Assembly: GCA_002989075.1 (NCBI GenBank)
Contig: PSQN01000013.1
Location: forward strand, 1,212,379 to 1,276,378
DNA: 64,000 nt
From: Arthonia radiata
Lineage: Eukaryota; Ascomycota; Arthoniomycetes; Arthoniales; Arthoniaceae
Reading direction: 5' to 3'
Below the pieces are notes generated by a model. The model was not told the DNA's origin. It worked only from the letters and a program-made list of their open reading frames with translations, and did not search any database. The position numbers and the translations under genes were made by a program. Shown here piece after piece: positions 7,851 to 16,653 of this stretch; position 1 is the first letter of the stretch; every line of letters starts with the position of its first letter.

Positions 7851-7992
7851 AGGTCTTGCCAGGACTCGAACCTTCTCAAGGTTAGCTTCAAGTATTTGAA
7901 GGTAAGCGAAGCGGATTTGACGAACCTGGGTTAGCGGAAGAATCGTGATTCGAGATCAGAATCCGCTGTGATAACCACTACACTACAAAACC
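7851..7992 (-). tRNA. tRNA-Gln (anticodon CUG) with a normal intron and an extra 54-nt insert in the T arm
   Basis: On the minus strand the 5' acceptor strand GGTTTTG (7992..7986) pairs over seven positions with CAAGACC at the 3' end (one G-U). The D arm is GTG-TAGTGGTTAT-CAC. The anticodon stem GCGGA/TCCGC encloses TTCTGA, giving anticodon CTG. A normal tRNA intron of about 16 nt follows position 37. The T arm should read CCAGG-TTCGAGT-CCTGG, but it is split: CCAG, then 54 nt (7872..7925), then GTTCGAGTCCTGG. Removing those 54 nt gives a complete cloverleaf of ordinary length. The A box, the B box downstream of the insert and a T-run terminator are present. Total length 142 nt, against about 88 expected with one intron. 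It could be an inactivated gene, but every stem is intact. Confidence 0.85.
7872..7925 (-). other. Intron-like 54-nt insert inside tRNA-Gln
   Basis: Read on the minus strand, the insert starts GTTCGT, has GCTAAC nine nt before its end, and ends GAGAAG, so it is bounded by GT and AG with a fungal-type branch box. The exon junction is CCAG|GTTCG, a classic AG|GT site. Seven bases (AGGTTCG) are repeated at the two ends, so the exact boundary can slide. Inside is a perfect hairpin, CTTCAA-ATAC-TTGAAG. It contains no TTTT run, so Pol III could read through it. Confidence 0.75.
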
Positions 7993-11343: not shown

Positions 11344-13900
11344 ATGGCGGAAGCACACAATTCGAGTGAGAGTCGAAGTGATACGCAAGCTGGCCAATCC
11401 CACCTCCCGTCGCAGCTTTCCTCTCATCAGCAAGTGCCCACCGTCTCCGAAGCTCATCCATCGCAAAACGGCCCCGCGACCTCAAACGTCAACAACTCTA
11501 CCTCTGAACCATCTGAAACACCAAACAGTCCACAACACCCCCGCTCGCGTCGTGGCAGCTTCTCCTTCCTGCGAAGGACAAAGTCGCGCGAATACTCCGA
11601 GACGCGCAAAGAGTCGGGTGGAGGGCCGCGGAAGTTGTCGCGAAGGAAGAAAGATCGAGGGGTGTCGAAAGAGGAAGCCACGGCCCAGCTCAAGATGGCG
11701 CCGCAGCTTCCCAGTTACCACAACCTGCCACAGATGAACACACCTTTCGTCGACGGCTCTGCCCAGAATTCCTCCTCCCAGTCCCCACCAACCACCACCG
11801 GGCAGTATCCCGTCTTTCCAAACGCCCAAGAGAGGCCAGCCAGTAAGACTGGATACGATCCGAACGCTTTCTACCGGCGTCATCTCGGAATGGCTGATCG
11901 CACGACACCGCCGACTCAGGCGGCGAGAAACACCACGCCCACAACCGCTGGCAGTTCTCCGCAGGCAACCGCTCAAGACCCGTATCCACGGACCGATAGG
12001 TACGTCAGACCCCTCAGCTGTCACGTGAAGGATCTTTCTGAACTCGCAACATCCGTGAGATTTCCACTTGCACGCACTGGAGCCCACGCTCATTGCGTGC
12101 TCGCTCCGAAGATACTGAAGACATCCATATCGGGTTGAGAGCACACCTTCAACACGCTTACAGTCAAGGCAAATTCGCTGACATTTTCCTATCTAGCATC
12201 ACAAACCGGGGCCGGTATAGCTATGCCAACCAGTCCGGCAACGGCAACGTTAACAGCCCACGCAGAGTCCGCAGGAGGAAAGATCCCACGCCCTTCAAGT
12301 ACGTTCTCATACCTTTGAGACATCCTCTAGTCCCGTGAAGACAACCCGTGACTGACCCTGCTTCTACAGTGTCCTGGTCGTTGGCTCCAAAGGCGCCGGA
12401 AAGACTTCCTTCGTCGACTTCCTCTGCCATGCGCTTGCTCAGCCTTCCCGCTCCTCACGTGTGAAAGGCGCAGTGTCCACGCCAAAGCCCGAGACCAAGA
12501 AGGAGCAAGGCTCGCCGTTCTCATCACACTATCTGGAGTCAGAAGTTGAAGGAGAACGCATTGGCGTGACCATTTACGACTCCAACGGTCTTGAGAAGCA
12601 CCTCATCGACTTGCAGCTTAGAGAGTTCTCATATTTCGTCGAATCAAAATTTCAGGAGACTTTCAGAGAAGAGCAAAAAGTCATGCGATCTGCAGGCGTG
12701 CGAGATCCCCACATCCACTGCGTCTTTGTGATCCTGGATCCCTCAAGACTTGACAACAACATCTCTGCAGCGACTCCGCAGAACCAAAAGAACGGAGACC
12801 TCATCAACAAGCCCCGGGTTGTCGGCGCGTTCGACCAAGACATTGATGTCGATCTATTCAAGGCGTTGGATGGCAAGACAACGGTTGTGCCGGTCATTAG
12901 CAAAGCGGACACAGTCACGACTGCTCACATGACCTATCTGAAGCGCGTGGTCTGGGACAGCATGAAGAAGCTGAAGATCGATCCGCTGCAGGTCTTGAAC
13001 ATGGAGTCTGACGATGAGGCTGATGAGACCCAGCCTACGTCTGCTGCTATCGAAGAGAAAGACGAAGCGGCAACAGAGCTCAAGCCGAATGATCGGTCTC
13101 GTCCGGCTGCTTCTGAGACCTCAGTGTACGACTCTGCCTCAGAAGGGGACTCGGACGGTGATGACAGTGATTCAACGGTCAGTAAAGGCCAACCCAAGTC
13201 AAAATCGCTCCACGCTCCTGGCACCAATGGCACCACCGGCAGCACCTTGAAGCCACGTTATGACGAGATCAAGGTGTCCACGATGTCTGAGAATGTCGAC
13301 CTCCCTATGCTGCCTCTCAGCATCATCTCACCTGACATGCACGATCCCACCGTTATTGGTCGGCGATTCCCGTGGGGCATGGCAGACCCATACGATGCCG
13401 AGCATTGCGACTTCACACGACTGCTCGACAACGTCTTCAGCGAGTGGCGTGAAGACTTTCGAGAGGCAGCACGTGAACGCTGGTATGAAGGCTGGCGAAC
13501 GAACCGACTACGCACTCGCGGGACTGTTTCCTCCCCAGCTAACAACATCCGAGCGACTTCCGGTGGTACTCCTGGCCAAGGACGGGCAGTCAGCGGTGCA
13601 TCAGCTTACGGTGGCAGAGTGAGTCTAGTCGAAGCACTGAAGACCATCGATAAGCCGCAGCCGGCCACCCGACAAAAGTTTTGAGCCACGTTACTAACTA
13701 TGGTATCGGCACAGGGTCCTGAAACAGCCCTTTTGGCACCAAGCGCATCTGGAGGGAGCAGCACATCAGCCAGTCGGGCGGTTTCGGCGACTGACATTGG
13801 TGTTGCTGTAAGCTCTCCTGGTGCTCCTCCGACCTTGCCCAAAAGCATCTCCATGCCACTACAATCACAATCCAGTTATCGTGGTCTTGGTACATACTGA
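11344..13900 (+). CDS. aspE: Septin, AspE type (group 5)
   Basis: Four exons: 11344..11999, 12197..12298, 12370..13618 and 13715..13900, giving 730 residues. All junctions keep frame; the last intron has a TTACTAAC branch site. Residues 1-250 are disordered and Ser/Pro rich. A basic RRVRRRKDPTPFN segment then leads straight into the GTPase fold: VLVVGSKGAGKTS is the P-loop, DSNG replaces the usual DTPG switch II motif, and SKAD supplies the guanine-specificity motif. An acidic insert (about residues 470-540, many Asp, Glu and Ser) follows, then WGMADPYDAEHCDFTRLL, a typical septin C-terminal G-domain element. There is no long C-terminal coiled coil. AspE septins occur in filamentous fungi but not in budding yeast; they assist septin ring and filament assembly during septation. 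The altered switch II suggests reduced GTP hydrolysis (inference). Confidence 0.88.
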
Positions 13901-16445: not shown

Positions 16446-16606
16446 GGTGGTATGGTGTAGGGGTAGCATAACACGTTGTATGTCTCCCTCATCGGCTCTT
16501 CATCATCGCTGGCACCGCATCCAATTGCTATGCTAACGTTGCTGCTTCAGGTGGTTCATTTCGCCTCAAGACCGTGTTGACGCGAGTTCGATTCTCGCTG
16601 CCGCCA
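16446..16606 (+). tRNA. tRNA-His (anticodon GUG) with a normal intron and an extra 73-nt insert before the anticodon
   Basis: Acceptor strands GGTGGTA (16446..16452) and TGCCGCC (16599..16605) pair over seven positions, with A as discriminator. The D arm is GTGT-AGGGGTA-GCAT. The anticodon stem ACACG (16471..16475) pairs perfectly with CGTGT (16573..16577). The T arm GCGAG-TTCGATT-CTCGC is perfect. The loop between the anticodon strands is 97 nt. It reads TT, then a 73-nt insert (16478..16550), then GTGG, then a 17-nt segment placed exactly where tRNA introns sit (after position 37), then C. Without both inserts the loop is TTGTGGC, the standard tRNA-His loop, and the tRNA is 71 nt. With the 73-nt insert in place there is no sensible anticodon. 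The A box (TGGTGTAGGGG) is good, the B box near consensus, and a T5 terminator lies 43 nt downstream. Confidence 0.88.
16478..16550 (+). other. Spliceosomal-type intron-like insert inside tRNA-His
   Basis: This 73-nt insert starts with a perfect fungal donor GTATGT, has TGCTAAC 13 nt before its end and finishes GCTGCTTCAG, so all three signals of a fungal mRNA intron are present at normal spacing. It lies between U33 and the first anticodon base. It has no TTTT run that would stop Pol III. It is only four bases upstream of the canonical 17-nt tRNA intron (16555..16571), so two introns of different kinds flank the anticodon. Confidence 0.8.
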
Positions 16607-16648: not shown

Positions 16649-16653
16649 TTTTT
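16649..16653 (+). terminator. RNA polymerase III T-run after tRNA-His
   Basis: Five consecutive T, the first such run downstream of the tRNA-His 3' end, at 43 nt distance. This is within the range used by fungal Pol III. Confidence 0.5.

Follow-up and report, generated by a model that had tools for sequence, protein, structure and literature searches.

Lichen-forming ascomycetes are known to have spliceosomal introns in their rDNA (Bhattacharya et al. 2000, cited in PMC8527467), and yeast spliceosomes excise a lichen intron from an rRNA transcript made by Pol I (PMC8527467). Introns of the mRNA type are also known in the U6 snRNA of fungi (Tani and Ohshima 1989; Canzler et al. 2016; cited in PMC5832005) and in their U3 snoRNA (PMC5832005). 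These two were considered in 2017 to be the only small structured RNAs in which introns were known to be frequent, tRNAs going unnamed in that passage (PMC5832005). Non-canonical multiple tRNA introns have been described in archaea, nucleomorphs and Cyanidioschyzon merolae, where they are linked to BHB-like motifs and the tRNA endonuclease (PMC4090602). Eukaryotic tRNA genes with an insertion in the D or T arm are usually taken as pseudogenes (PMC4090602).

A tRNA-His(GUG) gene of Arthonia radiata, located in an analysed stretch of 64,000 nt (hereafter the window), is best explained, with a probability of about 90%, as a functional nuclear gene that carries a U2-type spliceosomal intron between positions 33 and 34 as well as a canonical SEN intron at 37/38, and as one of many tRNA genes apparently colonised by spliceosomal introns. 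Similar to the rDNA of lichens, mRNA-type introns reside here in genes of structured non-coding RNAs and would be removed from transcripts not made by Pol II, but the lichen cases, exemplified by Cladonia grayi, concern rRNA and Pol I, whereas the present genes encode tRNAs, are presumably transcribed by Pol III, have very small exons and often yield transcripts with an additional intron of the SEN type (compare PMC8527467). The fungal U6 and U3 introns described so far (PMC5832005) share the same three signals, and U6 is likewise a Pol III gene, as seen in three U6 genes of this genome; however, U6 has one fixed intron site here and the tRNA intron sites are scattered. The tRNAs of archaea, nucleomorphs and Cyanidioschyzon merolae resemble the present ones in having introns in the D arm, T arm, variable loop and acceptor stem, with several per tRNA, but the tRNA introns of the Guillardia nucleomorph measure 3–24 nt, in contrast to the elements of 49–73 nt with GT, branch point and AG found here (PMC4090602). 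Compared with canonical eukaryotic tRNA introns, the 17-nt segment of tRNA-His is alike in its position and the 73-nt segment differs in both its position and its mRNA-intron signals.

An earlier reading of the window from its sequence alone (the sequence-only reading) knew of no described class of this kind. Among the open-licence PMC papers listed by full-text searches, none announces spliceosomal introns of tRNA genes in its title or in the opening of its abstract. The available portions of PMC6652019, PMC11782384 and PMC6461891 contain no such case either. These comparisons suggest that the known occurrence of mRNA-type introns in structured RNA genes may extend to tRNAs, and on a genome-wide scale.

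Structure of the tRNA-His(GUG) gene

The four stems of the gene are all paired: the acceptor stem is GGTGGTA/TGCCGCC with two G-T pairs, the D arm GTGT-AGGGGTA-GCAT, the anticodon stem ACACG/CGTGT, and the T stem GCGAG/CTCGC, followed by the discriminator A73 at 16606. The 73-nt insert opens with GTATGT, a GTRNGT-like 5' splice site as in U2-type introns, and contains TGCTAAC, after which 13 nt lead to its end, TTCAG. Its excision restores the anticodon loop TTGTGG and yields a cloverleaf with the GUG anticodon and A73. The coordinates of the features are collected in Table 1.

Table 1. Features located in the window, with their positions, strands and characteristics
Feature	Position	Strand	Characteristics
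tRNA-His exon 1	16446..16477	+	Positions 1-33, comprising the 5' acceptor strand, the D arm, the 5' strand of the anticodon stem and U32 U33
Spliceosomal-type intron, 73 nt, U33/G34	16478..16550	+	GTATGT...CTAAC-13 nt-CAG
Micro-exon GTGG, four bases	16551..16554	+	Anticodon GUG and G37
Canonical (SEN-type) intron, 17 nt, 37/38	16555..16571	+	Called i(36,17) by ARAGORN once the 73 nt are cut out in silico
tRNA-His 3' exon	16572..16606	+	Position 38, 3' strand of anticodon stem, variable loop, T arm, acceptor 3' strand, A73
Probable Pol III terminator (T5)	16649..16653	+	First T5 run 3' of tRNA-His
tRNA-Gln(CUG), second tRNA gene of the window	7852..7992	-	54-nt spliceosomal-type intron in T stem at 7872-7925, GTTCGT...CTAAC-9 nt-AAG
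mRNA intron of septin-like gene, 71 nt	12299..12369	+	GTACGT...CTGAC...CAG

As it stands, the gene is reported neither by Rfam at the gathering score nor by ARAGORN, and the latter calls it tRNA-His (gtg) i(36,17) once the 73 nt are removed in silico. The position 33/34 lies outside the canonical SEN site, where the 17-nt insert is found. A splice-aware finder that demands an intact T arm and permits up to two introns gave this gene as its sole solution in the window on both strands. In a structural search with free borders, four other registers scored slightly above the GT/AG one (59.4 versus 58.4), indicating that the borders are set by the GT, branch-point and AG signals and not by the cloverleaf alone. 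No TTTT occurs inside the gene, and no TATA-like match lies at -48 to -18.

The sequence-only reading had placed a 73-nt insert with these three signals between U33 and G34 of a tRNA-His with intact stems, stated that its removal restores the His loop and leaves a 17-nt canonical intron, and noted the lack of an internal TTTT; all of this was recovered when coordinates and signals were recomputed, the first T5 run lying downstream at 16649. Its further proposal, that the insert is an intron of the spliceosomal type, agrees with the sequence properties and with the occurrence of the same signals in 22 of 35 tRNA genes, as described below. The genome-wide extent and the presence of such introns in U6 of this fungus were unknown to that reading.

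Interrupted tRNA genes across the genome

The genome searched amounts to 33.5 Mb in 16 contigs. Arthoniomycetes, the class that includes Coniocarpon, Alyxoria and Chrysothrix, consists largely of lichen-forming ascomycetes. The best named matches of an Erg26-like protein encoded in the window come from Coniocarpon cinnabarinum (59% identity), Chrysothrix (49%) and Alyxoria varia (48%), and two other matches were higher (64 and 61%); by this one protein, the host most likely belongs to that class.

Candidates for tRNA genes were drawn from Rfam, from T-loop patterns and from a His pattern, and the resulting loci were passed through the splice-aware finder, which permits deletions of the form GT...branch point...AG, requires a YTNAY branch point and allows 3–26 nt from it to the AG. 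Scoring by the Rfam tRNA family covered 63 of 1065 candidates. All 70 sites of the first T-loop pattern were taken as loci, and 19 of the 46 sites of the second were fetched, the rest being mispaired or already included. For the third, 100 of 225 sites were examined and two new ones fetched; the fourth gave 48 sites, none newly fetched. The others among these 100 and 48 sites were already included or mispaired by eye, and both patterns reached position 74, one base too far, so that fewer true sites matched. Sixteen of the 48 matches of the fourth pattern had the look of one dispersed repeat that contains CCTTAGTTCGATTCT..TAGCGACCGG and a B-box-like core, on contigs C1, C2, C4, C9 and C11–C16. 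Finder solutions below 40 were left out (L085 at 33.4, L008 at 31.3). A later finder run contributed six of its 11 rows (L082, L097, L122, L021, L114 and L074), and the rows for L056 and L072 as well as three alternatives of L005 were dropped, since they differed only in trading the final bases of the acceptor for an AG further downstream. After removal of one duplicate from 36, the catalogue holds 35 genes and is incomplete, with Gly, Asn and Phe unrepresented; introns in the T arm were detectable solely in loci already included on other grounds.

In total, 22 of the 35 genes bear 33 spliceosomal-type introns, 11 of them having two each. The introns are 49–61 nt long in 32 of the 33 cases, the 73-nt intron of tRNA-His being the outlier. 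Group I and group II introns are much longer than this, and both were ruled out because 49–73 nt is far too short. The sites are spread over the D loop (7), the 5' strand of the anticodon stem (6), the variable loop (4), the D stem (4), the anticodon loop (3), the 5' strand of the T stem (3), the T loop (2), the acceptor stem (2), the junction between positions 9 and 10 (1) and the 3' strand of the T stem (1). Exons enclosed by two such introns are as short as 6 nt (L074) or 8 nt (L053, L072 and L078). Among the 5' splice sites, GTATGT (7), GTGAGT (4), GTACGT (3) and GTTAGT (3) recur beside 16 others, and the branch points are CTAAC (10), CTGAC (10), CTAAT (4), CTGAT (3) and others (6). The 3' ends read CAG (18), AAG (7), TAG (7) or GAG (1), the GT-AG ends of the 32 introns other than that of tRNA-His being given by construction of the search. 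Canonical introns could additionally be placed, by the present authors' own reading, in 26 of the 35 genes.

The tRNA-Gln(CUG) gene of the window also contains a 16-nt canonical intron, and Rfam reports it with an extra insert. In the tRNA-Leu(CAG) gene of locus L022, the acceptor stem is split by an intron; a poly-C tract of 34 bases (L022:213-246, contig C14 ~197,510-197,550) lies about 125 bases upstream of it. The anticodon of L103 is TCA according to the finder and may by eye be Val-CAC.

Several loci drew attention for other features. Two tRNA genes on the minus strand of contig C7 (416249-416544), L016 and L008, are three bases apart, and each has a GC-rich anticodon-loop insert of about 70 nt without clear GT, branch-point and AG signals. 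An Ala-like tRNA on the minus strand of contig C9 (L111, ~2,197,200-2,197,700) resembles this pair, with a GC-rich insert of about 100 nt in the anticodon region that likewise lacks clear spliceosomal signals. The pair and L111 stand outside the 35 genes. On contig C3 (815151-815302), a tandem of Trp(CCA) and Met(CAT) genes (L014/L006), seven bases apart, is without spliceosomal introns.

Specificity of the intron assignments

The genes were found partly by assuming GT-AG introns and a branch-point motif, with the stems being part of the finder score, and one may ask whether so permissive a search could have picked up the inserts by chance. Reversed loci gave no gene with the same finder. When all 256 pairs of border dinucleotides were applied to the same loci with the same scoring, GT..AG completed 14 genes, the next pair completed 8, and 208 of the 256 pairs completed 0–2. 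ARAGORN, which has no model of spliceosomal introns, detected 4 of the 22 interrupted genes uncut and all 22 once the GT-AG introns had been cut out in silico, compared with a mean of 5.7 and a maximum of 11 of 22 rescued by random deletions of equal length (50 rounds); the uninterrupted genes were found in 13 of 13 cases. For three genes (L056, L098 and L022), its anticodon reading differs from that of the finder. The distance from branch point to AG falls within 9–14 nt in 32 of 33 introns, though the finder allowed 3–26. The up to 8 genes completed by decoy borders and the up to 11 rescued by random deletions speak for a chance contribution, but together with the empty reversed loci, the single solution in the window, the full recovery by ARAGORN and the clustered branch-point distance, the probability that chance accounts for the inserts appears practically negligible.

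A structure-only border search covered 30 introns, three of L022 and L123 having come later, and placed the GT..AG register among the best solutions in 17 of the 30 and not in 13, tRNA-His included. Runs of T4 within the introns numbered 3 against 5.7 expected, a depletion that is not significant (P 0.17). An introner-type family of shared mobile elements was rejected, since an all-against-all BLASTN comparison of the 33 introns at E 0.01 returned one pair with a 12-base match.

Integrity of the interrupted genes

A further explanation is that the interrupted genes are dead copies hit by intron-like insertions while intact tRNA genes elsewhere do the work. The sequence-only reading had named an insert-free tRNA-His(GUG) gene elsewhere, together with a lack of RNA from this locus, as the mark of a pseudogene here. 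Genome-wide, the His pattern (TTGTGG, then GTTCRANYC at 14–44 nt) matched 34 sites, against 31 for a reversed-pattern control, and inspection of the stems at all 34 (31 rows in 30 stretches, plus L122, L023 and L103) disclosed no insert-free tRNA-His, bearing in mind that a His gene whose base 37 or T loop departs from the norm would escape the pattern. The only tRNA-His-like site, L023 on contig C1 (~54,300), has a fully paired T stem and 4 of 5 pairs in the anticodon stem, and this second tRNA-His gene carries its own 54-nt spliceosomal-type intron in the D loop. Among the remaining sites, L103 alone shows full pairing of the T stem, and there TTGTGG belongs to the canonical intron of another tRNA. 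Used as a DNA query, the spliced tRNA-His of L023 matched L023 alone and missed even the window copy, so this search is too blunt to speak for absence.

Every gene found for Thr (AGT, TGT and CGT), Glu (TTC and CTC; two genes), Tyr (one gene) and Ser (GCT; one gene) is interrupted by spliceosomal-type introns, and an uninterrupted gene was found for some amino acids, such as Met, Arg, Cys and Trp. Mismatches affect 7 of 440 stem pairs in the 22 interrupted genes and 3 of 260 in the uninterrupted ones, pairing having been part of gene selection. The 100 nt downstream include a run of at least five T (T5) for 21 of the 22 interrupted genes and for 12 of the 13 uninterrupted ones, and the interior of all 35 is free of such runs. 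The decayed stems expected of pseudogenes are not seen in the 22 interrupted genes, and for His no intact copy elsewhere turned up at the 34 pattern sites. The usual verdict on eukaryotic tRNA genes with insertions in the D or T arm (PMC4090602), the incomplete catalogue with its three missing amino acids and the uninterrupted genes for some amino acids lend the idea of dead copies some plausibility, but it is very unlikely in view of the lack of an insert-free His gene at the 34 pattern sites, the isotypes found only as interrupted genes and the stems and terminators retained as in uninterrupted genes; moreover, decay would hardly be expected to leave 32 of 33 inserts with such an even distance from branch point to AG.

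Related introns in U6 snRNA and mRNA

Three U6 snRNA genes score above the Rfam cut-off (L119, L120 and L121 on contigs C12, C14 and C2), and all are interrupted at one site by mRNA-type introns (51, 55 and 56 nt) that follow the grammar of the tRNA introns. A T run follows each of the three, and a TATA-like element is located upstream of two. Considering that U6 is essential, its introns must presumably be spliced, and since they share this grammar, transcripts of Pol III are very probably spliced in this fungus.

The size and signals of the tRNA introns also match those of an intron in a septin-like gene of the window, the one mRNA intron delimited. With this intron taken out, the reading frame is joined to give a P-loop (VLVVGSKGAGKTS), and in the unspliced frames stops intervene or the P-loop is lost. 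A pattern-only scan of the window for mRNA introns produced no clear excess over decoys, and the septin intron was therefore delimited by its reading frame.

The long inserts could alternatively be cut by the tRNA endonuclease at BHB-like sites in non-canonical positions, as in Crenarchaeota, nucleomorphs and Cyanidioschyzon, with the GT-AG ends being incidental. Non-canonical multiple tRNA introns are indeed known (PMC4090602), and the genome holds two genes with the catalytic domain of the endonuclease (PF01974), through which the canonical introns have their enzyme. Two is the number expected for Sen2 and Sen34, without any expansion; moreover, the inserts share their grammar with the U6 introns and the septin mRNA intron of the same genome, and their branch-point spacing is constant to a few bases. 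Removal of the long inserts by the endonuclease is accordingly regarded as very unlikely.

Transcription and processing

The A or B box is split by an intron in the DNA of 10 of the 22 interrupted genes, by which TFIIIC should be hindered. In Schizosaccharomyces pombe, upstream TATA-like elements have promoter function, and elements of this kind may carry it here where the boxes are split. They precede 7 of the 10 genes with a split box and 13 of the 25 others and are not clearly commoner in the former. For the tRNA set as a whole, the AT fraction at -50 to -20 is 0.62–0.68, compared with about 0.5 further up. The seven 5S matches are all uninterrupted, indicating that not every Pol III gene is affected.

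With spliceosomal removal as the preferred reading, a pathway can be proposed for tRNA-His. Pol III would transcribe the gene through both introns to the downstream T run, as suggested by the terminators found across the set and by the AT-rich DNA upstream of these genes. The major (U2-type) spliceosome would then remove the 73-nt GU-AG intron in the nucleus, a step to which its signals and the U6 introns point, and SEN together with tRNA ligase would subsequently remove the 17-nt intron, in keeping with its position and the two genes for the catalytic domain. SEN is cytoplasmic in yeasts, and on this ground the spliceosome would act first.

The scattered sites and unrelated sequences of the tRNA introns make it seem that they arrived separately. 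The pattern would fit many separate gains, for instance by reverse splicing, which has reportedly been suggested as a route of intron gain for the rDNA of lichens. Intron gain is visible in tRNA genes because the cloverleaf fixes both the exon sequence and the site.

Implications

Introns of tRNAs and spliceosomal introns are usually treated as separate worlds, and in tRNA-His both kinds stand four bases apart. If the proposed reading is true, the spliceosome can act on Pol III transcripts that are very short, structured and presumably uncapped and that contain micro-exons. Such genes escape ordinary tRNA searches, and other genomes may therefore hide the same. A tie may exist to the proposal that the rRNA introns of lichens slow growth and aid desiccation tolerance (PMC8527467).

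Judging from the genome, it is fairly likely that the spliceosome is essential for translation in this fungus in a new way: His, Glu, Thr and Tyr at least appear to be served only by interrupted genes, and the nuclear removal of U2-type introns from Pol III transcripts, whose exons can be as short as 4–8 nt, would be an obligatory step of tRNA synthesis ahead of SEN splicing. Several genes without an intact internal promoter box in the DNA would have to be transcribed from upstream TATA-like elements. The machine that splices mRNA would then be needed to make the tRNAs of this fungus.
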